From Acidobacteriaceae bacterium (GTDB taxonomy: Bacteria; Acidobacteriota; Terriglobia; Terriglobales; Acidobacteriaceae): DNA of 35,487 nt. The first letter of the stretch is position 1. Every line of letters starts with the position of its first letter. Where the stretch lies: NCBI GenBank assembly GCA_025361625.1, contig JANYKL010000038.1, forward strand, positions 1-35,487, read 5' to 3'. This document shows, one piece after another, positions 3,115-30,309 of this stretch. The position numbers were made by a program, and so were the translations under genes. The notes beneath the pieces were generated by a model. That model searched no databases. It was not told the origin of the DNA and worked only from the letters and a program-made list of their open reading frames with translations.

Positions 3115-3373
3115 GGTCTGTCTCTGTCCCCTACAAGTGTTACCAAACTTTGTACTTCCATTGCACAGAGATAGACGGGATAACAGCCGAAAGGTTAGCA
3201 GATTGCGGGATTGCAGGTAAGCTAAAGCGAGGTCGGTTTTGGGTCAATTCGCAACGCGTGAAGCCAGAGGCCAGTTACTGAACCTAACGACGTCAATACC
3301 GGCCAGGGGGCCCACGGTTGATTCTCCCGTCCCGCCGAGCGACCCGCGACAACCCTGTCTGTTTTTACCTAGA

Positions 3374-3862: not shown

Positions 3863-4004
3863 GATGGAGCTTGTAGCGCTACTCTTCAGATGACCATCTC
3901 GACGGCACAACTGACCTGCAGTTCCTCGAAGCTGGAGGCGTGTGCGCGCGACTCTCAAAAAGGTACAATAAATGTGACAAGCTTCTCGAGGAACACCGAA
4001 ATTC

Positions 4005-4382: not shown

Positions 4383-4391
4383 AATCATCGG

Positions 4392-4455
4392 CCCAGTTAG
4401 TGATCGGCCAAGTTGATGATTGGTCAAGTTAGTGATCGGTCCACGGCGCGATCGG
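4392..4455. repeat. Four degenerate 16-bp tandem repeats between queD and queE
   Basis: Units at 4392-4407, 4408-4423, 4424-4439 and 4440-4455 read CCCAGTTAGTGATCGG, CCAAGTTGATGATTGG, TCAAGTTAGTGATCGG and TCCACGGCGCGATCGG. A weaker unit seems to end at 4391, overlapping the queD stop codon. There is no coding capacity here. Confidence 0.8.
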
Positions 4456-4526
4456 AATAACGAAAGCTGAAAGAGACGCTAGGTCTTAGATCTCCACGTA
4501 GTCAAGTCACCCGATTCTTTCGTTCC

Positions 4527-5210: not shown

Positions 5211-5330
5211 GCTTCGGTTTGAGATCGCAGATCGTTTGAAATCTTCATCAAACATGGCTCCCCATACCACAAATTCAATTATGGCATTCCTTCGGCGCGC
5301 TGCAAAAACCGCGACCGATGAATCCGATCT

Positions 5331-7256
5331 CTACGCTGGCTGCGTCTGCACACGGTTCTCTGCCCGCAGATGCGCAACCACCAGTCGTATATCTTCAAAA
5401 CTCACGTAAGGCGGAAGGGCTTCTTTGATGTCGCGCAGCCGCTCGACTCCTTGTTTCAGGCACGCTTCTTCAATGAGAGGTTGCGCGTCTGGAGAGATCC
5501 ACCTCGGATCGAGCTTTATCTGCTTCGTCTCGACCAGGCTCGCAACGGTACAAATGACGGTTGAAACCTGTCGAGCCCGGATACGGGCAATCTCATCAAA
5601 GGTCTTTCCTTCTTTAAGCAGAGTGAGCGTCTGCTCTGCCGGACCGAGTTCCTTCGAGGTGATCGGGACGGCTCGTGCGCCTATGTCAAAATTACGTAAG
5701 GCCTGAAGAATTTCGGACCCGTACACGTCCGCCTTCCTTTCTCCGATGCCTATCACCTGCAGTAACGCAGCAAGATTGGCCGGGCGCTGGCGGCACAACT
5801 CTTCAAGCGTGCTGTCGTGCAGAATGATGTATGCGGGAACCTTGTTTTCTTTCGCCATAGTGCGTCGCCATTCGCGCAGGTAATCGGCCAATGCCGGATT
5901 TGCCTCGGCTGGCGTTTCATTGCGCAATCGCCGCTTTTCGGATGACGTTCGGGGCGTGTAAGAAGAAGATAAAGACGATTCGGTCGCGCTTCGCCGTCCT
6001 TTAGGTTCTGGCAGACTCACACGCACTTTTTCCTTGGTCCACTCCGGTTTCGTTCCACAATTGTCGCAACTGCTGCATTTCTCCCATGTCGGAGTTTCGC
6101 CAAAGTGCAAACAAATCTGGCGGTGGCGGCACGCGCGAGAATCGGCGAATCGGCTGATAATGCGCTTGCGGCTGGAGGCGCGTTCGCGCTCGGCGTCATC
6201 CGCAATTTTGTCGATGAAAAAATCCAAAAGTATGTGATCGCGCTTTTGCCACAACAGTACGCAATCGGCGGGGCGGCCATCCCGCCCTGCACGGCCTGCT
6301 TCCTGGTAGTACTGTTCGATCGACTGGGGCAGCGATAGATGAATCACGGCGCGTACTGCGGGTTTGTTGATTCCCAGACCGAAAGCAATCGTGCCCACAA
6401 GTACTCGCACCTCATCAGACATCCAGCGTTCCTGGTTTTGCCGGCGCAGCGAAGCTTCCATCTTCGCGTGATAGGGAACTGCGGCAATCCCATTTTCCTC
6501 GAGGTATTCGACTGTCTCCTCGACGCGCTTGATCGTCGGAGAGTAGACGATAACGCTCTCCCCCGCATAGCTGCGCAGGGCGCGGCTCAGCATTTCAAGC
6601 TGCGTACGCGCTTCGCATTCCTGTACGACATATCGCAGATTTTCGCGATGGAAGCTGGCGATGTAGCAATCGGGCTGGCGCATCTGCAACTGCTTCAAAA
6701 TGTCATGCCGCACCTGGCGAGTGGCGCTTGCCGTGAACGCGGCAATAGGAAACTGCGGGAAGGTTGAGCGCAGGCGGTTCAACTGGCGGTAGTCCGGACG
6801 AAATTCGTGTCCCCACTCTGAAATGCAATGCGCCTCATCGACCGCAAAAAAACCAACCGGCACTAGGTTGAGCCATTCAAAAGTGTTACTCATTGCCAGC
6901 CGTTCGGGCGAAAGGTAAAGCAAACGGTATTTTCCCCTTGCCGCGGTATGCATGATGTTTTTGCGCTCGTCGGATGTCTGCTGGCTATTGATGACGGCGG
7001 CGGGAATTCCCATCTGGGCAAGCTGTGCCGCCTGGTCTTGCATGAGCGCGATGAGGGGAGAAACCACGATCGCAGTCTTCTCTGACACTACTGCCGGAAG
7101 CTGGTAGCAGAGAGATTTCCCCCCTCCAGTAGGCATAACCACGCAGGTGTCATGCCCCGCCAGCACACTCCGAATCACATTTTCTTGCTTGGGACGGAAC
7201 TCGTGGTATCCCCAATATCGACGCAAGATTTCCGAAACATTTGCAGCGGCTGACAT
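5331..7256 (-). CDS. recQ: ATP-dependent DNA helicase RecQ
   Basis: 641 residues. Superfamily 2 3'-5' helicase for recombination and fork repair. Visible motifs: Walker A MPTGGGKS (41-48), DEAH box (139-142) followed by the aromatic-rich loop CISEWGHEFRPDY, motif III AFTASAT, and motif VI QYYQEAGRAGRDG (about 325-337). A zinc-binding region C-x-H...CSSCDNC follows near 385-410. An HRDC domain (LREWRRTMAKENKVPAYIIL ... IGIGERKADVYG) lies near 465-540, then an HTH_40-like C-terminal helix-turn-helix (EGKTFDEIARIRARQVSTV). Between the zinc site and HRDC there is only a short polar linker rich in Ser/Arg, with no recognisable RQC winged helix. The flanking genes are unrelated. Confidence 0.93.
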   Translation of the reverse strand: MSAAANVSEILRRYWGYHEFRPKQENVIRSVLAGHDTCVVMPTGGGKSLCYQLPAVVSEKTAIVVSPLIALMQDQAAQLAQMGIPAAVINSQQTSDERKNIMHTAARGKYRLLYLSPERLAMSNTFEWLNLVPVGFFAVDEAHCISEWGHEFRPDYRQLNRLRSTFPQFPIAAFTASATRQVRHDILKQLQMRQPDCYIASFHRENLRYVVQECEARTQLEMLSRALRSYAGESVIVYSPTIKRVEETVEYLEENGIAAVPYHAKMEASLRRQNQERWMSDEVRVLVGTIAFGLGINKPAVRAVIHLSLPQSIEQYYQEAGRAGRDGRPADCVLLWQKRDHILLDFFIDKIADDAERERASSRKRIISRFADSRACRHRQICLHFGETPTWEKCSSCDNCGTKPEWTKEKVRVSLPEPKGRRSATESSLSSSYTPRTSSEKRRLRNETPAEANPALADYLREWRRTMAKENKVPAYIILHDSTLEELCRQRPANLAALLQVIGIGERKADVYGSEILQALRNFDIGARAVPITSKELGPAEQTLTLLKEGKTFDEIARIRARQVSTVICTVASLVETKQIKLDPRWISPDAQPLIEEACLKQGVERLRDIKEALPPYVSFEDIRLVVAHLRAENRVQTQPA

Positions 7257-7368
7257 TCCTTGCAGTATAGCCTTACGGCAGGTGGCGATTTGTTAATGCC
7301 TGATCATGATTTGTGATGAAACGAAGTGTGATCGAGATAAATTAAGCGGCGAATAGCGCGAAGGGGCG

Positions 7369-7845
7369 ATGACAGGAAAAGCAATTACGATCGGCATAAT
7401 TTCAGACACTCATAGTTTGCTTCGTCCTGAGGCACTGAGCGGGCTGCAAGGCTCGGACCAGATTCTGCACGCGGGCGACGTCGGCGACCAGGAGATTCTC
7501 TCCAGGCTCAGGACGATCGCACCGGTTACAGCGGTTCGCGGTAACGTTGATACCGCGCCGTGGTCACGACACTTGCCATTGACCGAGGCAATCGAAGTCG
7601 GCGGCCTGTTGATTTACATGCTTCATAATATTGGGCAACTCGATCTGAAGCTCCAGGCACCCGTATTCCGCGTAGTCGTCTACGGTCACAGCCATCAGCC
7701 GAGAGTCGAGGAAAAAAACGGAGTTCTTTTCTTTAACCCTGGAAGTGCTGGCCCACGCCGTTTTACGAAGCCCATCACGATTGGAAGGTTGACGATCAAA
7801 GCTGGAGAAGTTCGACCGGAAATTATCAACCTCGTACGAGTTTAA
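7369..7845 (+). CDS. YfcE/MJ0936-family metallophosphoesterase
   Basis: 158 residues, a single calcineurin-like phosphoesterase domain of the short YfcE type, which hydrolyses phosphodiesters with Mn2+ or similar metals. The metal-binding motifs appear in order: SDTH (12-15), GDVGD (36-40), GNVD (58-61) and GHSHQP (107-112), with FFNPGSAGPRR as the family's C-terminal signature. The usual His-Gly motif between them reads MLHNIG, so His is kept but Gly is replaced by Asn. The ATG at 7369 has AAGGGGCG immediately upstream. The physiological substrate is unknown. Confidence 0.92.
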   Translation: MTGKAITIGIISDTHSLLRPEALSGLQGSDQILHAGDVGDQEILSRLRTIAPVTAVRGNVDTAPWSRHLPLTEAIEVGGLLIYMLHNIGQLDLKLQAPVFRVVVYGHSHQPRVEEKNGVLFFNPGSAGPRRFTKPITIGRLTIKAGEVRPEIINLVRV

Positions 7846-7860
7846 GAATTTAGCTCCCAA

Positions 7861-7890
7861 AAATGGAAAAGGCCGGCTGCTAGGCCGACC
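7861..7890 (-). terminator. Intrinsic terminator of the HU gene
   Basis: On the minus strand, GGTCGGC and GCCGGCC arms (7871-7890, one mismatch, loop CTAGCA) are followed by TTTTCCATTTTT. It lies about 70 bp past the HU stop codon. Confidence 0.6.
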
Positions 7891-7900
7891 TCATTCTCAA

Positions 7901-7926
7901 TGCTAACGTTCTTTGCTAACGTTCTT
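7901..7926. repeat. Perfect 13-bp tandem duplication
   Basis: TGCTAACGTTCTT occurs twice head to tail at 7901-7913 and 7914-7926, between the HU stop codon and its terminator. It is probably a slippage product within the 3' untranslated region. Confidence 0.85.
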
Positions 7927-7958
7927 TCTTGCCGATACGTAAGATCGTCCGGGCTAAA

Positions 7959-8255
7959 CTATGCCTTCTTCGGAGCGATTGAGTCCTTCGCGGCCTTGGC
8001 CACGCGGAACTTCACAACCGTCTTCGCTTTGATCTGAATCGGTTCGCCAGTCTGCGGGTTGCGCCCCATGCGGGCCTTGCGATGTGCTTTCACCAAGCGA
8101 CCAAGGCCGGGAACGACAAATACGCCATTCTTCTTCGTCTCTTTAATCGCTGTGTCTGCCAGGTGTTCCAGGAACGCGGCGACAGTCTTGTTGTTGAGTT
8201 CCATCTTCTCTGCTAAGTGGCGAGTGAGTTGTGTCTTGGTCATGCCAGAAGCCAT
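7959..8255 (-). CDS. HU-family DNA-binding protein
   Basis: 98 residues, the normal length for HU/IHF. It should bend and compact DNA as a dimer. The N-terminal helices (MTKTQLTRHLAEKMELNNKT) are followed by the DNA-binding beta arm, GLGRLVKAHRKARMGRNPQTGEPIQIKA, which contains the conserved R-x-G-RNPQTGE turn with the intercalating Pro. The C terminus is Lys/Ala-rich (AKAAKDSIAPKKA). The ATG at 8255 has an excellent GAGGAGG ribosome binding site about 7 nt upstream, consistent with high expression. The gene is monocistronic with a terminator at 7861-7890. The N terminus MASGMTK offers a second in-frame ATG, but the ribosome binding site spacing favours the first. Confidence 0.96.
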   Translation of the reverse strand: MASGMTKTQLTRHLAEKMELNNKTVAAFLEHLADTAIKETKKNGVFVVPGLGRLVKAHRKARMGRNPQTGEPIQIKAKTVVKFRVAKAAKDSIAPKKA

Positions 8256-8643
8256 TAATTTCCTCCTCAGGGATCTATACAGATTTGCGTTATGAGCGCA
8301 TGGTAACGCACTCCGCTGTGGAAAACTAACATTTAGTATTGATTTTATGCGGTTCCCAATAAGGTACCCCTATCAAATCGTGCATGAAATGCGGGGTTTC
8401 GCGAGTTTTTGGAGAAGAAAGTGCTCCAGTCGCGTAGTTTTCTGCCATGTCTGACACCACGATTGACCCGCATTCTCAGTTTGGCCGTTCGTGCTCGAAG
8501 CGGTCTTTCTGTTGAACTGGATTTTCTGTCTTGCAGTCACCTGCAAAAAAGTCTCGCCCTTCCAATCGCAGCATCGCAGTGTGGTTTACACTGAGACCCA
8601 TTTCGCTCGATAAAAATTTAGAAGTCGTTGAGGAGAATTAGTT
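8256..8643. other. 388-bp intergenic region between HU and aldolase genes
   Basis: Divergent promoter region without a convincing gene; the 61-codon plus-strand ORF at 8409-8594 has no ribosome binding site and no family look. On the minus strand a loose sigma-70 candidate for HU (TTGGGA, 17-18 nt, CTAAAT/TAAATG, about 8327-8355) can be drawn but is weak. The last 20 bp contain the GAGGAG ribosome binding site of the aldolase gene. Confidence 0.5.
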
Positions 8644-9489
8644 ATGGCAGATGCCGCCCTGAGTGGCGCGGAGTTCAAAAAGCAGTTACACGCGGGAACG
8701 CTAAAGGTGGGCTTGTTCATCAATTCGCATAGCGCAACCGTTGCCGGGCAACTCGCGTCTAGCGGGTACGATTGGCTGCTGGTTGATACCCAGCATGGTC
8801 CAATGAATCACGAAAACCTTTCTGCCATGTTGAGTGCGATTGAAAACGGCGGCGCAAAATCAATGGTTCGCGTCGGCGGGTACGATGACCGTCCGGGTAT
8901 TCAGCAGGCGCTTGATCTTGGTGCCGATGGCGTCCTGGTTCCGTACATCAACACCGCTGAAGAAGCGCGCCAGGCGGTGAGTTGCACGAAATATCCGACG
9001 GTCGGAACGCGTTCAGTCTATTTTCCGCAGCGCAGCATGAACCAAGCCGGTCTGCTCGGTTATGCCGGAAATTGGAACAACGAAGGCATCGTTGCGTTGC
9101 AAGTTGAAACCGCCTCATGTATCGAAAACATCGCAGAGATTGCGACGGTGCCAGGCGTCGATATTCTATTTCTCGGGCAAAACGATCTTTGCATGTCGAT
9201 GGGACTTTTCAATAAGTATGAATTTCCGCACATGTACACTTCGCCGGAACTCGGCGCCGCGACGGACAAATTGATCGCGCACGCGCAAAAAAATAACATC
9301 GCGCTCGGCGTCTTTCTGTTCGGAACAGCTCGGGTGGGAGAATTTCTTGAGAAAGGGTTCTCGTTCATCAGCCTGGGCAACGATTTGCATCACATGCTGA
9401 CACAGGCAGGCGCCTATGTGAACGACGTAGAAAAATTTTCGAAAGAAAAAAACAAGAGTTGGAAACGCCGCACTACGGCGCTGTTTTAG
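8644..9489 (+). CDS. HpcH/HpaI-family aldolase
   Basis: 281 residues, a TIM-barrel class II (metal-dependent) aldolase of the HpcH/HpaI superfamily, which cleaves or forms 2-oxo-4-hydroxy acids to pyruvate plus an aldehyde. Family landmarks: VDTQHGPMNHENL near 48-60 (usually D-x-EH-x), RVGGYDDRPGIQQALDLGADGVLVPYI near 78-104, the metal-binding Glu in ALQVET (family MIET), and LGQNDLCMSMG with the metal Asp (family GPNDLS). The catalytic His of the usual D-x-EH pair is kept as QH. ATG 8644 is preceded by TTGAGGAG. It stands alone, so the natural substrate is not indicated. 2,4-dihydroxyhept-2-ene-1,7-dioate or rhamnonate-type aldolase are possibilities, neither proven. Confidence 0.9.
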   Translation: MADAALSGAEFKKQLHAGTLKVGLFINSHSATVAGQLASSGYDWLLVDTQHGPMNHENLSAMLSAIENGGAKSMVRVGGYDDRPGIQQALDLGADGVLVPYINTAEEARQAVSCTKYPTVGTRSVYFPQRSMNQAGLLGYAGNWNNEGIVALQVETASCIENIAEIATVPGVDILFLGQNDLCMSMGLFNKYEFPHMYTSPELGAATDKLIAHAQKNNIALGVFLFGTARVGEFLEKGFSFISLGNDLHHMLTQAGAYVNDVEKFSKEKNKSWKRRTTALF

Positions 9490-9609
9490 CTCCGGTGTAA
9501 TTCTTTCATCCCTGGGCGAGTGATGGGGACATGCACTTACTGCCAGCAAGTGGTGCGGGTGAATGGCCGTTCGCTTCGCTCAGGGTGGCCAATCTAATTG
9601 AGCGCTAAC

Positions 9610-10044
9610 TCAGGAAGGGAGACGGCACGCGCTCGATATCCGATGGCGGTGGCGGGCAAACCAGCGGTAGCCTGTGTAAATGAGACGATTGAAGCCGGGC
9701 AGACTGAAAATGGCATAAAAAGGCCAGGCCCACCAAATTCGCCGACTCGCGTACAAATAGACGTCTGCTCCTGATACGAGTCGTCCGTCGTTGGTCAACA
9801 AGCGGATATCTTGAAACAAATCTTCTCTCGACATTCTTATTTTTGCCGCAACCCATGGTTCATCCATGGAAGCAATCGTAAAGCCGTGTCGGGCAAGCGT
9901 TCGAGCCCAGAATTTCGCCCAGCGCGAGCAAAATCCGCACTGTCCATCGTACAGAATGACGCCAAGAACGACGCCGGATACTGGCTTCATTTCGACCCGC
10001 TCATTGTCTCGATCATCGTCCCGCTCTTGCCCTCGCGTGCTCAT
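9610..10044 (-). CDS. DCC-family (DUF393) thiol-disulfide oxidoreductase-like protein
   Basis: 144 residues. It has the namesake D-x-x-C-x-x-C motif as YDGQCGFCSRW near residue 30, then the family's RLLTNDGRLVSGADVYLYASR and a C-terminal hydrophobic/aromatic half (WWAWPFYAIFSLPGFNRLIY) ending in YRWFARHRHR. These proteins are predicted redox-active, but no reaction is established. It starts only 3 bp after the DUF2071 stop codon, so the two are translationally linked, a pairing that suggests joint function. The first 25 residues are acidic and low-complexity, so an internal start is possible. Confidence 0.9.
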   Translation of the reverse strand: MSTRGQERDDDRDNERVEMKPVSGVVLGVILYDGQCGFCSRWAKFWARTLARHGFTIASMDEPWVAAKIRMSREDLFQDIRLLTNDGRLVSGADVYLYASRRIWWAWPFYAIFSLPGFNRLIYTGYRWFARHRHRISSACRLPS

Positions 10045-10047
10045 AAA

Positions 10048-10770
10048 CTATAGCTTGCGCCCGAACATGACTGTAACCGCCGAGCCTTCCGCAAGAAAAG
10101 CTGAATGCGGCGCGCTTTGGAGCACCGCAGACAATTCGTTGCCAAACAGATTCCTTTGTTCTCCGGTGAAACTGCTTTGCTGAACCTGCCAAACCTTCCA
10201 TGAAGGGTGCGCTACTCGATATTCAACGCATCCGCCACCGCGCTGCGAACTGTAGCCCCAGTAGTGCTCAGTGATAAATTGCTCCACCGAATCGGCAGCC
10301 GGAACTTGAGCCACCCCAACCGTCCTAACGCTGATGTCGTTCCAACTCCCATCGAAGCGCCAACGATATGTGGCGCAGACTGCACCCTCGGTACTGTGCA
10401 CTTGGTGCGCCATGGGAAGCGCAATATAGTTTTCGTTGTAGAAGACCTTTGCAACGAAGGCCGTCGCTCTTCTTGGGACGATTTCACGAATAAACACGAC
10501 CCCCCTGCGCACCTCGTCTTGCACTTGCCGTCGCACGTAGAACCTCAAATTAATTTCGTCAAAGTCGGAATGAAACGGAATCGGCAGCATCCCAAACAGC
10601 TTCGTATTGAGAAATTGGAATCCGATCAGGCTGACGAAAACTTTATTTTCCCAACGATCAAGCTCGGTTCCGCGAGGTACAAGGGGCAGCAGCAGGCGCG
10701 CGTCGGCTTCGTAGTTCAAAATGGCCAGGTAATGCCATTTAGAGGTAAGAAAAACCGATTCTGCGCTCAC
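10048..10770 (-). CDS. DUF2071 (YqjF-like) protein
   Basis: About 241 residues from a GTG at 10770 (VSAESVFLTSKWHYLAILNY). This start fits the family, whose members begin just before F-L-T-A-x-W, and leaves about 110 bp for divergent promoters. An ATG at 10854 adds 28 non-conserved-looking residues and lies 27 bp from thyX. Family features: LLPLVPRGTELDRW, a FVSLIGFQFLNTKLFG strand, DFDEINLRFYVRR and GVVFIREIVPRRATAFVAK. The domain resembles acetoacetate decarboxylase folds, but a catalytic role is not established. It forms an operon with the downstream DCC gene. Confidence 0.85.
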   Translation of the reverse strand: MSAESVFLTSKWHYLAILNYEADARLLLPLVPRGTELDRWENKVFVSLIGFQFLNTKLFGMLPIPFHSDFDEINLRFYVRRQVQDEVRRGVVFIREIVPRRATAFVAKVFYNENYIALPMAHQVHSTEGAVCATYRWRFDGSWNDISVRTVGVAQVPAADSVEQFITEHYWGYSSQRGGGCVEYRVAHPSWKVWQVQQSSFTGEQRNLFGNELSAVLQSAPHSAFLAEGSAVTVMFGRKL

Positions 10771-13425: not shown

Positions 13426-13550
13426 AGGCTTGGTCTGCCGCGGCAACTCGCACCCGAGCAGAGCGGGCCGGTTCGCCCGATCTCCACGGCCGGAGATAGA
13501 AGAATAGCAGCGCTGAATCCTCCCTGCGGTTTCGTCATCTAAATCAGGGG

Positions 13551-13576
13551 AATGGTCGTTATAACGACTAACCATT
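13551..13576. promoter_or_regulatory. Nested palindromes upstream of pirin (candidate operator)
   Basis: GTCGTTATAACGAC (13555-13568) is a perfect 14-bp palindrome. It sits inside an outer AATGGT (13551-13556) / ACCATT (13571-13576) inverted repeat. The pair ends 16 bp before the pirin start, where a dimeric repressor would block transcription. No regulator gene is nearby. Confidence 0.45.
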
Positions 13577-13592
13577 GGAGAGGTGAAAAGGC

Positions 13593-14288
13593 ATGATTAC
13601 GATTCGTCCCAGCAACCAGCGCGGTGGCGGCGATTATGGATGGCTGAAGACTCGGCACACTTTCAGTTTTAGCGATTATCACGATCCAAAGTGGATGGGA
13701 TTTCGTTCTTTGCGCGTGATTAACGAAGATTGGGTTGCGCCGAACGGCGGATTTCCAACGCATCCGCATCGAGATATGGAGATCATCACCTATGTTTTGT
13801 CGGGCAAGTTGGAACACAAAGACAGCCTGGGAACGGGATCGGTCATTTTGCCGGGCGACGGCCAGAGAATGAGCGCTGGTCGAGGCATTCGGCACAGTGA
13901 AGCCAATCCGTCATCGAAAGATCCAGTCCATCTTTTGCAAATTTGGATTCTGCCCGACAAGCAAGGGCATGAACCGGGCTACGAGCAAAAGAGCTTTTCT
14001 GAAGCCGAAAAGCGGGGCAAGTTTCGGCTTGTTGCTTCGAACGATGGAGCCGATGGTTCGGTGAAAATTAACCAGGACGCAAAGTTGTTCGTGACGCTAC
14101 TTGCACCCGGAGAAGAAGTGACGCAATCGCTCGAAAAGCGCCATGCCTGGCTGCAAGTCGCCAAGGGCGACGTAGAACTGAATGGTAAGAAGTTGCAACA
14201 GGGAGATGGAGCTGCAATAAGCGAGGAGACAAAGCTGACGATCAAGGCGAACAACGATGCGGAGGTTTTGCTCTTCGAATTAGCCTGA
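13593..14288 (+). CDS. Pirin family protein (YhaK-like bicupin)
   Basis: 231 residues, the typical length for bacterial pirins. The N-terminal cupin carries the metal-binding motif PTHPHRDMEIITYVL (two His plus a later Glu), followed by GSVILPGDGQRMSAGRGIRHSEAN, which holds further ligands, and HLLQIWILPD. The second cupin (EKRHAWLQVAKGDVELNGKK) lacks the metal ligands, as usual. Some members, such as E. coli YhaK relatives, have quercetin 2,3-dioxygenase activity; others act as redox sensors, so the role here is open. ATG 13593 follows GGAGAGGTGAAAAGG. A palindromic operator candidate lies just upstream. Confidence 0.93.
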   Translation: MITIRPSNQRGGGDYGWLKTRHTFSFSDYHDPKWMGFRSLRVINEDWVAPNGGFPTHPHRDMEIITYVLSGKLEHKDSLGTGSVILPGDGQRMSAGRGIRHSEANPSSKDPVHLLQIWILPDKQGHEPGYEQKSFSEAEKRGKFRLVASNDGADGSVKINQDAKLFVTLLAPGEEVTQSLEKRHAWLQVAKGDVELNGKKLQQGDGAAISEETKLTIKANNDAEVLLFELA

Positions 14289-14367
14289 TGAATCGGCTTT
14301 TATATCGAGCATTCCGTGATGGACCCCTTGGATTATCACATCCAAAGGATCCGATTGTTTCTTAATC

Positions 14368-15270
14368 TTAAGGCCTGATTCCCGCAGCCGCCATCATTCT
14401 TCCGGTTATCCCTTTCTCGGCTCGATAACTGAACAGAAGATTGGTATTGCATGCGGTGCATGGGAACGAAGAATCAATGTTCTTCGCAGTTAGTCCTGCG
14501 TCCAGCAACTGGCGACGGTTTGCCTCATTCAGATCCAGAAAAAGCTTGGTGGGAAGCTGGCTGTGCCCGGGCGCGCGCGCGGTCAGGAATAATAAAGGGT
14601 ATTTTTCGCGAATGGGGTCTGAATCTTTCACTTCACGAAATAGGCTATCGGCGTACGAAAACTGAGACTGAAAATTCGTTCGCACCTCATCGCCCACGTC
14701 ATAGCAGCACGAGTGCACGCCAGGACCAATCGCGGCCAGCATATTTCGCGGCTCGCATCCATAGTATCTGCGCATTTCGCCCACGCCTTTTTCTGCCATG
14801 CGCTTCACCGTGCCGCGCCATCCAGCATGGAACACGCCGACCACCTTGCGCTTTGGATCGACCAAAATGATGGGGAGACAATCAGCGGTCTGTATGGATA
14901 TCGCAAGACCGGGAGCGTTTGTGATCAGGCCGTCGCCCGCCAAGGTTGTGTCGCCTGCGAGATCGACTTTGTGGATCAGATCGGAATGGATTTGCTTCAG
15001 CGAAATCAAGCTCCAGGCTTTGCGCGGTTGGGCGCCATCCAACGCGTTCAGGAAGAGTTCTCGATTACGCTCGACCGCAGCTCGAGAATCATGTGGCGTG
15101 AATCCGAGGTTCAGTGCCTTCCCTTTGTAGGTGCGGGATACGCCGCTGTTGCGTGTCGAAAACCCATGCAGCATCCATGATAAGTTGTCGAACTTAGACG
15201 AGCGTAAAACTAGTAGTTCATTTTTTTTAGTGGCAGTTTTTGGCACATTCCGATCATACCTCGATGACAT
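14368..15270 (-). CDS. pgeF: PgeF/YfiH-family purine nucleoside phosphorylase-like protein
   Basis: About 300 residues from ATG 15270 (MSSRYDRNVPK). The ORF stays open to 15867, but that part overlaps the divergent GluQ-RS gene and looks non-coding. It belongs to the DUF152/laccase-domain family, now linked to purine nucleoside phosphorolysis/deamination and to peptidoglycan-edit functions in E. coli. Zinc ligands and active-site motifs: SLKQIHSD, IQTADCLPIIL and VGVFHAGWRGTVKRM, i.e. the His/Cys/His triad. AIGPGVHSCCYDVGDEV and the C-terminal FPCTACNTNLLFSYRAEKG are further signatures. The N-terminal extension of about 30 residues is longer than usual. Confidence 0.9.
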   Translation of the reverse strand: MSSRYDRNVPKTATKKNELLVLRSSKFDNLSWMLHGFSTRNSGVSRTYKGKALNLGFTPHDSRAAVERNRELFLNALDGAQPRKAWSLISLKQIHSDLIHKVDLAGDTTLAGDGLITNAPGLAISIQTADCLPIILVDPKRKVVGVFHAGWRGTVKRMAEKGVGEMRRYYGCEPRNMLAAIGPGVHSCCYDVGDEVRTNFQSQFSYADSLFREVKDSDPIREKYPLLFLTARAPGHSQLPTKLFLDLNEANRRQLLDAGLTAKNIDSSFPCTACNTNLLFSYRAEKGITGRMMAAAGIRP

Positions 15271-16395: not shown

Positions 16396-17065
16396 CTATG
16401 GCCCAACCACGCTGGTGATTTTATTGTTTGGCCCCATTACTGCGCATACGGCCTTTCCCGAACCGAGCGCGGCGCAAGACGGCGAGCCGGTTCCGCTGCC
16501 GCCAATTTTTAGCCATCCTGTCCAATTCGTTCCGTTGTAGACGTTGGCGTAAAAAGCGTTGTCGAGCGCGCTGACAGCCCCGCACAGGAGTTCGCCAGCC
16601 GCTTGAGTCGTGCAAGCCGCGTTGTCGTTCACACTACCGCCCAAGGCGAGGTATCCGGACCAGTCTCCGACGGCCCATGTTCCGCCTTTAAACTCGTTGA
16701 TGTATATGCCTGAGTTATATGCCTTCGCGAAGCACGCCACCTTGCCGCTTGAATCCATGGAGACGCAGTCGGGTTCGCCGCCTGCTGTCCCGCCGACGTT
16801 GAGAAACGGACTGAACACTCCGGCGGCAAAGCGAGTCACCAAGGTCACGCCTGTGGTTGTGAATAATGAGCAAACGATTTCGTTGTTATTATCCGTGGTG
16901 CAGCTAGGAGCGGAAATAGCCGCGGCCTTTAGCGTTTTGATGGCGCTGAAGGCACTTCCGTTATAAAGCGTCCATGAAAGGCCGCCGGTTTCGTTGCGTG
17001 CCATGCATAGCACCTGACCAGCCGTGTACTGCGCACAGCTCGGAGCGGAGTAAAGTGCGGCGACT
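16396..17065 (-). pseudogene. 5'-truncated Cys-paired beta-propeller (lectin-like) gene fragment
   Basis: An open frame of about 220 codons begins at the flgN stop codon and ends at TAG 16396-16398. It carries five repeats of about 45-50 residues, each with a Cys pair spaced 9-11 residues apart (SC..GQVLC, SC..NEIVC, DC..GKVAC, AC..GELLC, SC..GKAVC) and Trp/Gly-rich stretches such as WTGWLKIGG. This pattern resembles PLL-like or tectonin-type beta-propellers of secreted proteins. There is no signal peptide, no ribosome binding site and no good start; the only upstream ATG (17196) lies inside flgN. Seven blades would be expected, so one or two plus the leader seem missing. The gene position is where flgK/flgL normally follow flgN. 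Confidence 0.6.
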
Positions 17066-17480
17066 AGGCCAGAGCATGCGTCGGAGCATAGGCATCGACA
17101 ATTCGCGCAAAAATTGCCATGCTCCGCTCCGCGTGCCGCAGCAAGGAGGCGTGCATGCGCATAAGAGAGCGAATGCGGCCTTCTAAATGGTCCCAATCAT
17201 CCTGCCAACGATCGGATTGCGCGGCCGAGCTGGAATCCAGGTTTCGCGCTGCCAAGGCGAGTCGCGATGGCGGCGCGGCGCAACGCAACTTCTCCTCGAG
17301 CGCGCTCCATTGGCGGCAGAGTTCTGCCTGGTGCTCCGCCCCGCGCGAGATCATCTCAGCTTCGTTTCGTCCGATTGCTTCAGTACTAGCCTGCAAGCTC
17401 TCAGCGAGATTCGACACGAGGGCGAGCCGCTGTTCGAGAAGCTGGCGCAGGTTCTCGGCGGACTGCTCTTCTTCATTCAT
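17064..17480 (-). CDS. flgN: FlgN-like flagellar export chaperone
   Basis: 138 residues, mostly helical, starting MNEEEQSAENLRQLLEQRLAL and continuing in heptad-like helices, as in FlgN, which chaperones the hook-filament junction proteins FlgK and FlgL to the flagellar export gate. The C terminus ends VDAYAPTHALA, close to the YAPTY-type ending seen in many FlgN proteins. After this the frame hits a TAG that also lies inside the downstream beta-propeller frame, so the last few residues may come from that foreign sequence. The FlgK and FlgL partners are absent from this window. The name rests on helical pattern, length and position after flgM; confidence is moderate. Confidence 0.72.
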   Translation of the reverse strand: MNEEEQSAENLRQLLEQRLALVSNLAESLQASTEAIGRNEAEMISRGAEHQAELCRQWSALEEKLRCAAPPSRLALAARNLDSSSAAQSDRWQDDWDHLEGRIRSLMRMHASLLRHAERSMAIFARIVDAYAPTHALA

Positions 17481-17720: not shown

Positions 17721-18044
17721 CTAGTGTCCCGGGGCGTACAGCCCGCCAAAGTCCCGTGCCAGTGCTTCGGCAATCTGACCGGGCGAGACGGAGTATTGAT
17801 CTTGGTGAATCGCCTGCCGCAATGACTGGACTTTGGCCTCGCGCACCTCGGGCTGCGCCAAGGCCTGCGCCGTCAGGGATTGCACCCTGATCTGGTCGAA
17901 GGAGAAGCTCGCCTGATCGCTCGACGAATTCCCCCCGGCCGGCGCAGTCGCTCGTGGTCCGAGGCTTGACAGAGACTGCGCGGCTCGGCTGCTCTTGCTA
18001 CTCTCCAGCGCCTCGGAGTTTATGCTGTTTAAAACAACCCTCAT
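17721..18044 (-). CDS. flgM: FlgM, anti-sigma-28 factor
   Basis: 107 residues. FlgM binds sigma-28 (FliA) and is exported through the completed hook, releasing late flagellar transcription. The C-terminal half has the family signature: REAKVQSLRQAIHQDQYSV followed by SPGQIAEALARD, where I-x-x-G-x-Y-x-V is the common core. The N-terminal half is Ser/Ala-rich and presumably unfolded, as usual. ATG 18044 is preceded by CAGGAG about 7 nt upstream. A near-consensus sigma-28 promoter lies about 155-180 bp upstream (18200-18226), as expected for negative feedback on FliA. No fliA is in the window. Confidence 0.9.
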   Translation of the reverse strand: MRVVLNSINSEALESSKSSRAAQSLSSLGPRATAPAGGNSSSDQASFSFDQIRVQSLTAQALAQPEVREAKVQSLRQAIHQDQYSVSPGQIAEALARDFGGLYAPGH

Positions 18045-18712: not shown

Positions 18713-18768
18713 ACGCCAATCGTGCAAGGCCAATCGTGAAACGTCAATCGTAAAACGCCAACCTTAAA
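18713..18768. repeat. 14-bp tandem repeat, four copies, overlapping a stop codon
   Basis: Units ACGCCAATCGTGCA, AGGCCAATCGTGAA, ACGTCAATCGTAAA and ACGCCAACCTTAAA (plus-strand reading) run head to tail. The last unit includes the TAA stop of the flgF-flgI chimera (18764-18766), so the array grew from, or into, the end of that gene. Confidence 0.8.
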
Positions 18769-19531
18769 TCAGCTCAAGATCAGCATCCAGTGCCCCCGCC
18801 GATTTGATCGCCTGCAAGATCGAAATCACATCCCGCGCGGTCGCGCCCATGTGTTGCAACCCGCTGACCAGCTGGTCGATCGTCGCCCCTTCACCTACTT
18901 CCATTCGTTTTGCCGAAGCGTCCTTCGCCTGCAAGTCGGTCTTCGGCACGACTTCGGTCGTACCGTTCGAAAGAGAATTCGGCTGCGACACGCCATATTC
19001 GGCCACGACTTGCACCGAGAATCCGCCATGCAGGATCGAGACCGCGCCCAGGCGAACGTCCCTCACTGATATCGTTCCGTCCGAGGCAATCGACACGGCT
19101 CCCGGCGGAACGTTGATCAGCCCTTTCGGCTTAAGGGAGGGGTCGCCGTAGACCGGGTCGCCAGTGGCCGTCACCAATATCCCGGTGCTTGAGACCTGAA
19201 AACTTCCATTGCGCGTGTAGCGCGTGCCGCGCGGCGTCTGAATCACAAAGTAGCCCTGACCCTCGATGCCTACGTCCAAGGGGTTTCCGGTCGTCTGCAA
19301 ATTGCCGGCGCTGGTATCCATGTGTGCGCCTTCCATCGCGCCGTAATTGTTGGTCGCGAGGTTAAGCACATTCGGCAGGGTGGGATGGGAGACGGCCACA
19401 AGCGACTGAAATGTTGACTGCTCGCCGCGAAATCCAACGGTACTTAGATTAGCGAGATTATGCGCTACCACTTCGAGCGCCTGACTCTGTGCTCGTAACC
19501 CTGCACAGGCGGCATAGAATCCACTGTCCAC
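18764..19531 (-). CDS. In-frame FlgF-FlgI chimera (proximal rod N-terminal part joined to P-ring C-terminal part)
   Basis: 255 residues from GTG 19531 (VDSGFYAACAGLRAQ), with GGGGG 5 nt upstream and a sigma-54-like promoter just before it. Residues 1 to about 155 are FlgF: the flagellar rod signature ALEVVAHNLANLSTVGFR, then TGNPLDVGIEGQGYFVIQTP, RYTRNGSFQVSSTGILVT and VPPGAVSIASDGTISV. From about residue 157 the sequence becomes the FlgI C terminus: DVRLGAVSILHGGFSVQVV, VSQPNSLSNGTTEVVPKTDL, EGATIDQLVSGLQHMGATA and RDVISILQAIKSAGALDADLELI. The normal FlgF ending (MIELQRAYE-like) and the FlgI signal peptide are both missing. The junction maps to 19064-19078. Such a protein should not form a P ring; a rod role is doubtful. 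Confidence 0.82.
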   Translation of the reverse strand: MDSGFYAACAGLRAQSQALEVVAHNLANLSTVGFRGEQSTFQSLVAVSHPTLPNVLNLATNNYGAMEGAHMDTSAGNLQTTGNPLDVGIEGQGYFVIQTPRGTRYTRNGSFQVSSTGILVTATGDPVYGDPSLKPKGLINVPPGAVSIASDGTISVRDVRLGAVSILHGGFSVQVVAEYGVSQPNSLSNGTTEVVPKTDLQAKDASAKRMEVGEGATIDQLVSGLQHMGATARDVISILQAIKSAGALDADLELI

Positions 19532-19556: not shown

Positions 19557-19572
19557 AGCAAACGAAGCGCCA
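19557..19572 (-). promoter_or_regulatory. Sigma-54-like promoter for the flgF-flgI chimera
   Basis: On the minus strand TGGCGCTTCGTTTGCT against the consensus TGGCACG(A/G)NNNTTGC(A/T): GG and GC are spaced correctly and 10 of 12 defined positions match in my alignment. It ends about 26 bp before the GTG start and supports that start. Confidence 0.6.
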
Positions 19573-19726: not shown

Positions 19727-20209
19727 TTAGTTGCTCAGTTGCAGCGTCGCCGTCACCGGCCCACCTTCAAACAGGACAAGGGTTGTGATCGAGACGCCGT
19801 GCAGCATAGAGTGAACCGTATAATGTCCGCCGCTTACGACGGTCGGCACACTCAGCTTGCAGCGATCGTCGGTACCGGCCAGCTTGTTCTTGAAATTTCC
19901 AGTCACCATGTTGCAGATTTCCCCGAGCGCATCGCGCACTTCCTCCTGAGATTGCGCGGCGGCGCCGAGCATGGCCCTTGCCACCGCCCCCGCTGTTTTT
20001 CCGCTACAGCAAATGGTAAGGATGCCGCACAGGGATCCCGTCAATCCGACCATGGCTGTAAATTCTCGGTCGGGCGTATGTGCCGACAGAGGCTCCGGTC
20101 TTACCCGACTGCCGACCATAATCTCAAAGACCTCTTCGAGGGCAATTTCAAGAATCGGCTGCCAGTTCTCTTCCCGGGAGCGGGTGACGAACGAGATATC
20201 TGTGCTCAT
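19727..20209 (-). CDS. cheX: CheX-like CheY-P phosphatase
   Basis: 160 residues. CheX dephosphorylates CheY-P in chemotaxis systems lacking CheZ. The catalytic helix carries E-x-x-N as Glu97 and Asn100 (ALGEICNMVTGNFKNKLAG), with the following GN-x-K typical of CheX/CheC/FliY. The surrounding fold TAMVGLTGSLCGILTICCSG and the C-terminal PVTATLQLSN also fit CheX. Its ATG overlaps the stop of cheY by 4 bp, so translation is coupled and the substrate is probably the upstream CheY. Confidence 0.88.
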   Translation of the reverse strand: MSTDISFVTRSREENWQPILEIALEEVFEIMVGSRVRPEPLSAHTPDREFTAMVGLTGSLCGILTICCSGKTAGAVARAMLGAAAQSQEEVRDALGEICNMVTGNFKNKLAGTDDRCKLSVPTVVSGGHYTVHSMLHGVSITTLVLFEGGPVTATLQLSN

Positions 20210-20592
20210 GGCTTTTTTGCCAGCACCGGCAAGACGTGTTCCTTGACCTGTTCCGGGGTGAAGGGCTTACGAATGTATCCGCGGGCACCCGAGGTCAACG
20301 CCTGTACCACGTGATTCTCGCTGCCTTCGGTTGTAATCATCACGATCGGCACCCCTTTGGCGGATTCGAGCATCGCCGCGTGAGACACAAATTCCAGGCC
20401 GTTCATGACCGGCATATTGATGTCGCACAAGATGAGATCCACCGGATTCTCCCGCAAAGACGAGAGCGCCTCGGCTCCGTTGGAGGCCTCAAAAATCTTA
20501 TCGAGATCGATCCCAGCCTGTCGCAGGGAACGCTCGACTATCTTGCGCATCACCGAAGAATCGTCGACGATGAGCACTCGAATCTTATCCAT
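20206..20592 (-). CDS. cheY: CheY-type single-domain response regulator
   Basis: 128 residues, one receiver domain without an output domain. The acidic pair Asp10-Asp11, phospho-acceptor Asp57 (LILCDINMPVMNG), Thr87/Thr88 (VMITTEG) and Lys109 (IRKPFTPEQ) are all in place. It overlaps cheX by 4 bp and sits behind a sigma-28 promoter (20662-20688), so it belongs to the motility regulon. A general response regulator with another role is the alternative, but the neighbours favour chemotaxis. No cheA is present in the window. Confidence 0.93.
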   Translation of the reverse strand: MDKIRVLIVDDSSVMRKIVERSLRQAGIDLDKIFEASNGAEALSSLRENPVDLILCDINMPVMNGLEFVSHAAMLESAKGVPIVMITTEGSENHVVQALTSGARGYIRKPFTPEQVKEHVLPVLAKKP

Positions 20593-27058: not shown

Positions 27059-28183
27059 TTACTTCGGGTCGGTGCGATAGCTCCAAAAATCTGCCATTTT
27101 TTCCTGAAGAACGTGGAATGGCGCCTGGCTAGATTCGCCTCGCGGTCCAGCGGTATCTTCGCGCACCGCGTCTTCGATCAAATGATGCAGCGGCGACAGC
27201 TCACACACAGGATCTGTCAGCGATGCGTCTCCTGCGAGAAGGAAAGCCTGGCAGCGGCAGCCTCCGAAATCTTCCTTGCGGCGATCGCAGGAGCGGCAGG
27301 GCTCCGGCATCCAATCTTCGCCGCGAAATTTTTGAAACGCGCCCGAATTTTGCCAGATCCAATCGAGAGAATGCTCAAGCACACTGTCGAAGGTCATTCC
27401 CGGAATCACGGTAGCAGCATGGCAGGGCAGCACGTCTCCAGAGGGATCGATCAGAAGGAGTTGTCGTCCCCAGCCACCCATGCAGGCTTTTGGGAACCGG
27501 GCATGATAATCAGGAACGACCATGTCGATTCGGACCCTTCCACGCATGCGTTCTTCCGCCGCTTTAACGACCGTGATCGCGCGATCTAGTTGAGTCCGCG
27601 TGGGCAGCAATGCCGAACGGTTTTTTAAGGCCCATCCGTAGTATTGCGCATGTGCGATCTCCATGCGATCGGGCTGAAGGGCTTCGAGGCCCGCAATCAT
27701 CTGATCGAGATGGTCGATGTTCTGGCGATGCACGACTAAATTTGCGGTGAAGGCGATGCGGTGCTCGCGAATCCATTCCGCGAGTTCGAGCTTGTGGGCG
27801 TGCGCGCGAGTTCCGGCGATCCAGTTGGCGTGGCCTTCTTCCGAATCCTGAAAACTTAATTGGATGTGATCAAGGCCAGCCCCGACGAGTTGCGCGAGCC
27901 GCTCGCGGTTGAGGCCGATTCCGGAAGTAATTAAATTCGTATAGAGACGGGACTCTCTCGCCCCCGCGATCAGCTCCGCAATATCAGGACGCGTGATAGG
28001 TTCGCCTCCAGTCAAGTGCAGGTGCAGAACGCCGAGCGCCGCTGCCTCATTGAAAACCCGCAGCCAGTCCCCGGTTGCAAGCTCTTCGGTGCGCGCTATC
28101 AGCTCCAGAGGATTCGAACAGTAAACGCAGTGCAGGGGGCAGCGATGCGTGACTTCGGCGATGAGGGCCAGGGGATTTTGCAT
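27059..28183 (-). CDS. pqqE: PQQ biosynthesis radical SAM protein PqqE
   Basis: 374 residues. PqqE links Glu and Tyr side chains of the PqqA peptide, the first step of pyrroloquinoline quinone synthesis. The radical-SAM Cys15-x3-Cys19-x2-Cys22 lies in HRCPLHCVYCSNP. The LTGGEP SAM site follows near residue 59. A SPASM domain occupies roughly 240-330 (CMGGWGRQLLLIDPSGDVLPC ... CRSCDRR ... GGCRCQAF) for auxiliary iron-sulfur clusters. It is last in pqqABCDE, 143 bp after pqqD. That gap contains a short inverted repeat and degenerate 15-bp repetition. Confidence 0.96.
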   Translation of the reverse strand: MQNPLALIAEVTHRCPLHCVYCSNPLELIARTEELATGDWLRVFNEAAALGVLHLHLTGGEPITRPDIAELIAGARESRLYTNLITSGIGLNRERLAQLVGAGLDHIQLSFQDSEEGHANWIAGTRAHAHKLELAEWIREHRIAFTANLVVHRQNIDHLDQMIAGLEALQPDRMEIAHAQYYGWALKNRSALLPTRTQLDRAITVVKAAEERMRGRVRIDMVVPDYHARFPKACMGGWGRQLLLIDPSGDVLPCHAATVIPGMTFDSVLEHSLDWIWQNSGAFQKFRGEDWMPEPCRSCDRRKEDFGGCRCQAFLLAGDASLTDPVCELSPLHHLIEDAVREDTAGPRGESSQAPFHVLQEKMADFWSYRTDPK

Positions 28184-28302
28184 GGTTATCTACGTCGGTC
28201 TTGCGATCCGCTGACTTTACGATTCATGACTCAGTCATCCTTCGCCGTGATAGAGGCAAGCACGCTTAGAAGGTAGGCGTTTGCGATTTGCGCGCAGTAA
28301 AA

Positions 28303-28323
28303 GTTGACGATATACAGGTCAAC
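28303..28323. repeat. Inverted repeat at the pqqD stop codon
   Basis: GTTGAC (28303-28308) and GTCAAC (28318-28323) can pair over a 9-nt loop, directly after pqqD (stop at 28327). On the minus strand the surrounding text repeats loosely with period 15. It is too weak to call a terminator. Confidence 0.3.
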
Positions 28324-28326
28324 GAT

Positions 28327-28620
28327 TCAGAAATCAACAATGCGCTTGTCGTGCAGCCGTTCCAGAAACATCCTTACATCGGCGCGAATTTTGTCTTTCG
28401 GGGCGAGCATGAATTGGGCTTCCAGTCGCTGCATGATTTCGGCCAGCGCCAGCTTCCCGTCGCAAAGTTCCAGTATGACGCGTCCGGTTCCCTCAACGCG
28501 AATCGCGCCTTCCGGAAACAACACGACCGGATTTTCTGTGGTGCCGCCCCAACGGCATCCAGCAGCCAGTTTCGGAATGCTAGCTTCGGTCAATTCAGCC
28601 ACGGTTGCTCCCGCTCGCAT
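28327..28620 (-). CDS. pqqD: PQQ biosynthesis peptide chaperone PqqD
   Basis: 97 residues from ATG 28620 (MRAGATVAELTEASIPKLAAG). A 62-residue upstream extension lies entirely inside pqqC and is rejected. PqqD is a small winged-helix protein that binds PqqA and presents it to PqqE. Typical features: PVVLFPEGAIRVEGTGRVILELCDGKLALAEIM, where the beta hairpin binds the peptide, and the C-terminal DVRMFLERLHDKRIVDF. It overlaps the end of pqqC by 26 bp, so translation is coupled. Confidence 0.94.
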   Translation of the reverse strand: MRAGATVAELTEASIPKLAAGCRWGGTTENPVVLFPEGAIRVEGTGRVILELCDGKLALAEIMQRLEAQFMLAPKDKIRADVRMFLERLHDKRIVDF

Positions 28621-29353
28621 CGTTGCGATTGGGCTGAAATGCATCGAGTTGAAATGCTCCCGGCGGCGGCCATCCGGGCTCGACGTAAGCAAAGTAGAGT
28701 GCGTCAAGTTGCGCCCAGAGAATGTCGCATTTGTCGCGCAAGGCGCGGATCGCGTTCTCCTGATCTTGACGAGTTTGGGCGTGATCGAAGACATATTGAA
28801 TCGCAAAGGCTGCGTCTTCGGGAGCCTCTGTCAGCCGTGCTTCGAAATAATCCAATCCTGAAGCTAGATAAGGATAATGGTGACGCAGGCGATCCATGCG
28901 CAGCGAAATCAGGTCGCGCGAAAACAGCTCAGTTAGAGATGACGCCACGCAATCGAGAAACGGACGGGTTCTCACTAGATTCAGGTATTCGTTTCCGATA
29001 AAGCGAGTTGCGGGCAGGACTTCATCGCCGCGCATCACTCGTTCACGGTCAAGGCCGGTCGCCTCGGCAAGTTTGATCCAGCGGATAATTCCGCCGTTAC
29101 GTGTATCGTCGCCGTCGTGGTCGACGATACGCTTTCGCCACAGGCGTCGAAACGATGGGTCAAGCGCGCGCGAAAGAATAATCGCGTCTTTCAATGGAAT
29201 GATCGACTGGTAGTAGTAACGGTTTAGCGCCCAGGCTTGCAGTTGTCCACGGCTGAGCTTGCCTTCATGCATAAGCAAGTGAAACGGATGGCGGTGATGG
29301 TAGCGCTCCTCTCCGACATGGCGCATCGCGGCGCGCAGTTCGTCGAAGGTCAT
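28595..29353 (-). CDS. pqqC: Pyrroloquinoline-quinone synthase PqqC
   Basis: 252 residues from ATG 29353 (MTFDELRAAM), the usual length of PqqC. A GTG at 29434 adds 27 residues and overlaps pqqB. PqqC catalyses the final cyclisation and eight-electron oxidation to PQQ without a metal. The signature RYHHRHPFHLLMHEGKLSRGQ, then ALNRYYYQSIIPLKDAIILSR, VDHDGD, a FIGNEYLNLVRTRPFLDCVASSL stretch and RHHYPYLASGLDYFEARL carry the active-site His, Tyr and Arg residues of the family. Position between pqqB and pqqD is as expected. Confidence 0.96.
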   Translation of the reverse strand: MTFDELRAAMRHVGEERYHHRHPFHLLMHEGKLSRGQLQAWALNRYYYQSIIPLKDAIILSRALDPSFRRLWRKRIVDHDGDDTRNGGIIRWIKLAEATGLDRERVMRGDEVLPATRFIGNEYLNLVRTRPFLDCVASSLTELFSRDLISLRMDRLRHHYPYLASGLDYFEARLTEAPEDAAFAIQYVFDHAQTRQDQENAIRALRDKCDILWAQLDALYFAYVEPGWPPPGAFQLDAFQPNRNDASGSNRG

Positions 29354-29394
29354 CTTTGGAGCATTCGCAGGAAAGTGCGCGATATTTTCGGAAG

Positions 29395-30309
29395 CTACAG
29401 TTCCAATCGCCAATTGTCCTCCGCCACTTCCCACCCGGCTTGACGCACCGCCCGATGTTCGGCGCTCGATTCGTTCAGCACAGGATTCGTATTGTTCAGG
29501 TGAATAAACATTTTGCGCTTAATTTTCAAATCCTTCAGCAACTGTAGACTCTCTTCGACCGGAACGTGGCCCATCTGGTGCGCGGTCTCACCGACGCCCT
29601 GCACGCGAATCAATTCGTCATCGCTCCAGAATGTTCCGTCGAACATGAGCAGGTCGACGCCGTCGATTTTTCGGAGCAAATCGTGGTTCAGATTTCCGAT
29701 TGCGGGAAGATATGCTAAACGCTTCCCGGACTTTGATTGGAAGAACAAACCTGCACTCGCCTCGAGCGCGCCAAGGTTCGTCGCGTCCGTCTTCACGTAC
29801 TTAGGATAGCGTCCGGAAAGAAAAATGGCCTCGCAGTTCAGCCCAGTCTCTTTCTCGTCAGATCCGAGCAACGGGAAGGGAGTTCCCGATTTCATCGTGG
29901 TCCAGAGCACTTGAGGATCGACGCGATTCAGCATACCGAACATGCTGTTCTCCTCGCGCAAAATTCTCAAGATCGAGGCGGAAGCGTAAACGCGCAGAGG
30001 TTGCAGTTCGCGCAAGAGAAGAAGTCCGGCAACGTGGTCGAGGTCGGCGCTGGCAAGGACGAGGCCGGAGACGGGTGATCCGCGTGTCCCGCGAGGATGC
30101 AGCTCAGGGAAGTTTTCGATTTGACTCGTAAGGTCGGGAGAGGCCCCAGCCAAAAACCAACTGAAACCATCCGAACTAATAGCGATTTGAGCTTGCGTGC
30201 GCGCTTTGCCGGGAAATCTTCTTTCGCGAACGCCAGCACAATTCGAGCAGCCGCAGTTCCACTGCGGAAACCCACCCCCGGCCGCAGAACCGAGGATCAG
30301 AATGTGCAT
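29395..30309 (-). CDS. pqqB: PQQ biosynthesis protein PqqB (metallo-beta-lactamase fold)
   Basis: 304 residues. PqqB is a nonheme-iron-dependent hydroxylase acting on the Glu-Tyr product. The N-terminal ILGSAAGGGFPQWNCGCSNC is diagnostic. Further landmarks include LVLASADLDHVAGLLLLREL (metal ligands in the D-x-D-H pattern), LLMFDGTFWSDDELI and MFIHLNNTNPVLNE. ATG 30309 starts 10 bp after the pqqA stop codon. Confidence 0.96.
   Translation of the reverse strand: MHILILGSAAGGGFPQWNCGCSNCAGVRERRFPGKARTQAQIAISSDGFSWFLAGASPDLTSQIENFPELHPRGTRGSPVSGLVLASADLDHVAGLLLLRELQPLRVYASASILRILREENSMFGMLNRVDPQVLWTTMKSGTPFPLLGSDEKETGLNCEAIFLSGRYPKYVKTDATNLGALEASAGLFFQSKSGKRLAYLPAIGNLNHDLLRKIDGVDLLMFDGTFWSDDELIRVQGVGETAHQMGHVPVEESLQLLKDLKIKRKMFIHLNNTNPVLNESSAEHRAVRQAGWEVAEDNWRLEL

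Follow-up and report, generated by a model that had tools for sequence, protein, structure and literature searches.

Does an open reading frame that begins as flgF and ends as flgI encode a working flagellar part, a new protein with another role, or the remnant of an operon that has been lost? This question was raised by a stretch of 35,487 nucleotides (the window; G000:C37:1-35487) from the assembly of an Acidobacteriaceae bacterium (G000; 3.83 Mb, 196 contigs, 95.7% completeness). The original prediction had described an in-frame chimera of the two genes, and this description was borne out: a single frame is open throughout, and Pfam, NCBIfam and alignments to relatives all divide it at the same place into two parts.

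18764..19531, minus strand: FlgF-FlgI chimeric open reading frame, 255 amino acids, GTG start (Pfam, NCBIfam, alignment to relatives)
19064..19531, minus strand: FlgF part, residues 1-156, with the rod N-terminal motif and the D1 domain but without the C-terminal part (Pfam, NCBIfam, alignment)
18767..19063, minus strand: FlgI part, the C-terminal 98 to 99 residues or so, without the N-terminal part (Pfam, alignment)

Pfam placed Flg_bb_rod at residues 6-35 and LlgE_F_G_D1 (the FlgE/F/G D1 domain) at residues 89-156, while residues 155-253 matched positions 244-342 of the 343-position FlgI profile (PF02119) with a protein E value of 1.2e-25. The NCBIfam split was the same, with the FlgF model TIGR02490 at residues 5-160 and FlgI models beginning at residues 150 and 154. 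Each family thus took a separate half, and none took the whole protein. TIGR02490 covered profile positions 1-148 of 218 and reached 140.3 bits, below its whole-protein cut-off of 178.5; the FlgI equivalog and subfamily models reached 83.7 and 81.5 bits, below whole-protein cut-offs of 557 and 300. In Pfam the FlgI half scored 90.6 and passed the low cut-off of 25.3. Genus relatives supplied eight flgF and nine flgI genes for an alignment, in which the product was FlgF-like up to V156 (58-72% identity to the relatives' matches) and FlgI-like from D158 (71-78%); its N terminus is that of FlgF, and the first ~265 residues of FlgI, including the signal peptide region, are absent. The E values rule out chance as the source of the split. 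As judged from these matches, the chimera is real, in frame and composed of two families.

The order from which it arose could be read from relatives. In the genus, the cluster runs cheY, cheX, flgF, flgG, flgA, flgH, flgI, flgJ, flgM, flgN, flgK, flgL, with plsX and fabD nearby; we take flgG, flgA, flgH, flgK and flgL to be correctly named from position and size, and Pfam supports the FlgH and FlgK homologues. Separate flgF and flgI genes with other genes between them are found in genus relatives, and full-length FlgI also occurs elsewhere in the class, in further genera, families and orders. A separate flgF and flgI, divided by native genes, would represent the ancestral state. Since the relatives keep the order flgF-flgG-flgA-flgH-flgI, about 3.3 kb has been deleted in G000 (coordinate arithmetic against locus L066 of G008), and the loss of the 3' part of flgF, of flgG, flgA and flgH and of the 5' part of flgI agrees with what had been proposed.

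The join itself had been placed at about 19064-19078, in a G-T-x-x-V stretch present in both families. The frame is indeed intact across it, but the exact join lies just downstream, at about 19060-19064, where FlgF 'GTISV' is followed by FlgI '(K/R)DVRLG'. Microhomology at the G-T-x-x-V stretch was therefore abandoned as the crossover: the FlgF version is retained through 'SV', with one codon fewer than FlgI has there, so the crossover lies downstream of it, at a breakpoint that shares at most a few bases when relatives are used as stand-ins for the parental genes. No long repeat and no shared word of assembly length was found at the join, again as judged from relatives, which makes a repeat-driven assembly error unlikely.

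The window retains plsX, fabD, cheY, cheX, the chimera, flgJ, flgM and a flgN cut at its 3' end; flgK and flgL are gone downstream of flgN. The features surrounding the chimera are as follows.

20206..20592, minus strand: cheY-like response regulator, upstream, open reading frame intact (Pfam, relatives)
19727..20209, minus strand: cheX, upstream, open reading frame intact (Pfam, relatives)
19557..19572, minus strand: candidate sigma-54 type promoter (-24/-12 type), TGGCGCTTCGTTTGCT, at -41 to -26 from the start codon
18248..18589, minus strand: flgJ (rod-binding domain), open reading frame intact (Pfam, NCBIfam)
17721..18044, minus strand: flgM (anti-sigma-28), open reading frame intact, though no FliA above the cut-off was found (Pfam, NCBIfam)
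17064..17480, minus strand: flgN, truncated at the 3' end and continuing out of frame into the open reading frame at 16396-17196 (Pfam)
16396..17196, minus strand: open reading frame read as a 3' fragment, at the place of flgK-flgL in relatives, without a Pfam or NCBIfam match

Elsewhere in the window (27059-30309), a radical SAM-like gene and its neighbors presumably resemble a PQQ biosynthesis cluster, going by the list of open reading frames.

Of the signals that were said to be kept upstream of the chimera, the start is supported, as relatives begin at the same place (19531); the listed start at 19573 is a longer in-frame alternative. The sigma-54-like promoter gained support as a candidate. 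Its TGGCGCTTCGTTTGCT match scores 10; of 2,000 mononucleotide shuffles of the region upstream of the chimera, 7 did as well and 98 more reached 9. In five of nine related flgF copies the best match lies equally far from the start (score 9 of 12), with the remaining four at -37, -40, -65 and -143, and RpoN is present in G000. The ribosome binding site did not live up to its description as a good one: it reads GGGGGC, weaker than the AAGGAG of 7/9 relatives. Transcription of the chimera from the retained promoter may occur, and this would not require any function of the product.

Searches of the whole assembly for key flagellar genes gave little sign of a flagellum. The chimera was the sole FlgI match, with no second, intact flgI elsewhere in the assembly by profile search, and likewise the sole match to the rod-protein N terminus (Flg_bb_rod). 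Neither FlhA nor the flagellin N terminus was found in the assembly. FliA was rejected as well: its best match, in a 566-amino-acid frame that we take to be RpoD, scored 111.8 bits, below the cut-off of 189.6. FliF is present on contig 159, where two sigma-54 activators and a kinase (presumably FlrA, FlrB and FlrC by analogy) are followed by fliE (identified by tblastn) and by a fliF that is cut at ~434 of ~530 and followed by an opposite-strand gene. The second of the two activators, which adjoins fliE and the C-terminally cut fliF, is itself a further chimera.

G000:C159 (L081), 13503-14852: FlrC-FlgC in-frame chimera

Its residues 1 to ~385 are FlrC-like and homologous to those of relatives, and they are followed by FlgC residues ~73-144 (the last ~72), which match Flg_bbr_C at 1.3e-10 and are 82-86% identical to FlgC of relatives. 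G000 thus carries two in-frame chimeras on two contigs.

We conclude that the FlgF-FlgI frame is most probably the scar of a deletion in a lineage that lost its flagellum, rather than a working flagellar part, and we put the probability of this reading at roughly 0.87. A soil acidobacterium would have lost motility, and a ~3.3-kb deletion inside the flg operon would have placed the last ~98 flgI codons in frame behind flgF codon 156. The odds of an in-frame outcome would exceed 1/3 because short stretches common to two codon-periodic genes are more often in phase, and the frame would still be open mainly because the deletion is recent. The product would be unable to work in a flagellum, since its FlgF lacks the C-terminal part, its FlgI lacks the N terminus and most of the body, and neither FlhA nor flagellin turned up.

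To what extent the chimera is shared and constrained was followed in relatives. Of 24 genomes searched in the genus, G000 alone gave a match spanning both halves, the other 23 giving none, and none of 29 related GTDB loci, a set that may omit the own or a very near genome, matched beyond chimera residue 206. Two FlgI matches each were observed in G001, G013 and G016; G001 and G013 also have two FliF places each, pointing to two flagellar systems. In a two-omega codon model (253 codons, 11 taxa), the G000 branch had an omega of 0.092, which did not differ significantly from the 0.104 of the remaining branches (likelihood ratio 0.33). With the same taxa, FlgF alone gave 0.093 versus 0.144 and FlgI alone gave 0.081 versus 0.055, slightly higher on the G000 branch but not significantly so (ratio 0.85). 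A 7-taxon model of FlgF plus FlgI gave 0.089 (profile about 0.057-0.135 with the other parameters fixed) versus 0.122 for the rest. In all of these models, the G000 branch includes the stem to the relatives and merges the time before and after the fusion. Branch estimates for flgN, cheX and flgJ plus flgM were saturated (t of 3.6-5.1, with lower omega) and were excluded. Pairwise dN for G000 was raised in the seven genes compared, most of all in the FlgI half (2.58 times) and flgN (2.74). Acceleration by lost constraint was rejected as a cause, as G000 stands outside the relatives used in the comparison (with a pS that is likewise higher) and the omega of FlgF plus FlgI is not raised on its branch. 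By our estimate, a neutral phase would fill only a small part of the G000 branch, a few per cent. Either a recent deletion or continued constraint thus explains why the frame is still open; a low omega is equally expected from retained function, and one genome cannot separate a recent scar from function.

Other genomes of the order were surveyed as well. Among 384 of them with a completeness of at least 80%, 251 had a match to PF00460. Forty-four other genomes had one to three matches, and 34 of these were taken, which makes 35 examined with G000; the ten left out were G006, G010, G215, G216, G280, G333, G384, G395, G396 and G399. Several of the 34 have mostly intact flagellar clusters in fragmented assemblies. 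Joins were surveyed by frame-blind tblastn with flagellar references, then by open-frame reading and then by Pfam; partial matches in normal gene order were taken by eye as divergence, and single-gene frameshifts were not counted. Besides the two chimeras of G000, the following joins were found.

L076 (G014), 3827-5185 and 2969-3145: FlgF-FlgK chimera, and cheY with an in-frame internal deletion, spotted by eye; in frame
L178 (G018), 7257-8336: FlgC-FliM; in frame
L185 (G226), 9971-10756: FlgB-FliA; in frame
L191 (G239), 4455-6368: FlhB-FlgI; in frame
L179 (G028), 2829-4007: FlgC-OmpA; in frame
L181 (G243), 9400-10350: FlgF-OmpA; in frame
G255: FlgE-CheR; in frame
L222 (G331): FlgH-CheR; in frame
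L197 (G335): FlgH-CheB; in frame
G049: FliG-HDOD; in frame
G138: FlgG-FlgL, a weaker case in a frameshifted pseudogene, FlgL piece without a Pfam match; in frame
G353: FliR-FlgN, a weaker case without a Pfam match; in frame
G122: FlgC-FliF; out of frame
G122: FliG-FlgJ, FlgJ by a weak Rod-binding match (E 0.018) and tblastn; out of frame
G310: FlgF-FlgJ, in a frameshifted flgF, by a weak Rod-binding match (E 0.0043); out of frame
G000: flgN and an unnamed open reading frame; out of frame

Few rod genes are left in G018, G226 and G239. The OmpA-family partners of G028 and G243, which belong to two genera, are joined at the same 'SQVD' motif; from motif and context we read them as MotB-like, while Pfam gives the OmpA family only. 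G331 and G335 share the codon at which FlgH breaks off ('NISQNL'), but FlgH continues into CheR in G331 and into CheB in G335; an old FlgH join may have been followed by a second deletion. Some chimeras keep only a small piece of the partner, for instance ~50-60 residues from the end of CheR. The FlgN part in G353 matches relatives between flgM and flgK, and its other part, of ~21 residues, is presumably FliR. The flgL gene beside the FlgF-FlgK chimera of G014 has two frameshifts. A flgK with a FlgE-like middle stretch was seen in L182 (G353), 4269-6242, and L202 (G398), 2713-4803. Six cut ends had no nameable same-strand coding partner and were not counted (G000 fliF, G213 flgF, G310 fliM, G310 flhA, judged by eye from the upstream sequence alone, G136 flgE and G421 fliI); when five partner pieces were later searched frame-blind, none of these ends was hit, the matches in these loci lying elsewhere.

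In total, 15 of the 19 joins counted in the 35 genomes were in frame. Leaving out the FlgF-FlgI join, which was originally chosen for being in frame, gave 14/18 (P = 1.4e-4 against 1/3). A strict set gave 9/13 (P = 0.009); it also drops FlgF-FlgK (guided by paralogy), the CheY deletion and both of the weaker in-frame joins, retains the weak out-of-frame cases and merges G331 with G335 because FlgH is broken at the same codon in both. The counts carry a bias, in that non-flagellar partners were named by in-frame read-through and are easier to notice in frame. A share above 1/3 would be expected from the genes themselves. Exact matches between different flagellar genes of G008 were in codon phase in 47-65.5% of cases at lengths of 4-9 bases and in 39-43% at 2-3 bases; the in-phase share fell from k = 11, which we ascribe to overlapping neighboring genes in the input. 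Over six genomes, with paralogous rod genes included, 45-80% of 10-mer pairs agreeing at 7, 8 or 9 positions or more were in phase. The strict count is compatible with this bias (P = 0.05 at an in-phase share of 0.43 and 0.09 at 0.47), while the wider count fits only its upper range (P = 0.008 at 0.47, 0.04 at 0.55 and 0.09 at 0.60). Exact shared bases are few at the FlgF-FlgI and FlgC-FliM joins, where the parents are clearest (relatives serving as stand-ins), the FlrC-FlgC breakpoint is not sharply defined, and the FlgF-FlgK join follows a conserved paralogous motif. The phase bias is thus statistical: it holds for gene sets, while the FlgF-FlgI breakpoint of G000 itself has almost no shared bases.

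Selection might in addition have retained in-frame deletions, owing to less polarity or fewer harmful tails, an idea that is compatible with a deletion scar and that we regard as unlikely, though worth keeping in view. It draws on the excess in the wider count (P = 0.041 still at a share of 0.55) and on the very few shared bases at the two clearest joins, matches as short as 2-4 bases being the ones with the weakest phase bias (0.39-0.47). The strict count needs no such selection, the excess may be inflated by non-flagellar partners, which are easier to spot in frame, and polarity was rejected as a cause in G000, where the only same-strand genes after the scars are flagellar leftovers (flgJ, flgM and the cut flgN; fliE and the cut fliF) that need no protection. 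We would tentatively suggest, at somewhat less than even odds, that the decay of flagellar clusters in this order repeatedly yields in-frame chimeras through phase-biased short similarities in GC3-rich operons, with selection as a possible addition. If so, gene loss would be biased towards new fused proteins, and the loss of a machinery would be a steady source of fusion genes.

Two other explanations would deny that the chimera is a scar at all. Selection could have retained it as a FlgF-FlgI hybrid, a new protein that functions outside the flagellum, as might be argued from the open frame, the retained sigma-54 type promoter together with RpoN, a G000-branch omega that matches the low values of intact relatives, and the in-frame chimeras of relatives. 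Against this reading, fusion partners vary by genome, some retain little more than the end of CheR, and the FlgF-FlgI fusion itself recurs in 0/23 further genomes of the genus. With FlhA not found and a ribosome binding site weaker than that of relatives, we consider such a hybrid very improbable. Equally improbable is a wrong joining of flgF and flgI in a metagenome contig. The join is known from the assembly alone, and the genome is a draft in 196 contigs; yet, going by relatives, there is no assembly-length word at the join, the searches turned up no intact flgI and no other rod-protein N terminus, and similar scars are present on the second G000 contig and in other genomes. A deletion scar thus remains the preferred reading.

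One such chimera alone is a curiosity. As a pattern, these are natural deletion joins within one machinery of known ancestral order, which makes it testable how often gene loss gives in-frame fusions and whether in-phase similarity or selection is responsible. There is also a risk for annotation, as such frames may bear the name of one half (FlgF, FlgI, FlgK, FliM) and falsely suggest a flagellum in a non-motile organism.

Compared with FlgF, the proximal rod protein (TIGR02490), the chimera has the same N-terminal rod motif, D1 domain, start, place after cheX and promoter but lacks the C-terminal part; with FlgI, the P-ring protein (PF02119), it shares the last ~98 residues but not the N terminus. 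No description of a FlgF-FlgI fusion was found in the literature searched. The kind has been described, in a 2026 preprint by Kaul, Rossine, Brinda and Baym, as deletion-born fusions (PMC12803068), which according to its text are mostly without evident function and are proposed to hitch-hike on an advantageous deletion. That screen compared the coding genes of five type strains, plus a gene-first set, with isolate genomes, and the preprint reports one in-frame and one out-of-frame mycobacterial case; its main text uses none of the terms flagell, microhomology and Acidobacteri. As in the cases set out there, the start of one open reading frame and the end of another are brought together by a deletion, the ancestral state is split, and the intervening DNA is poor in mobile elements. 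The FlgF-FlgI scar is therefore ordinary in kind, in a setting that is unusually clear and recurrent. What differs here, and as far as our searches show is new, is the recurrence in decaying flagellar operons, with several fusions in one machinery across genera and 15 of the 19 joins in frame.
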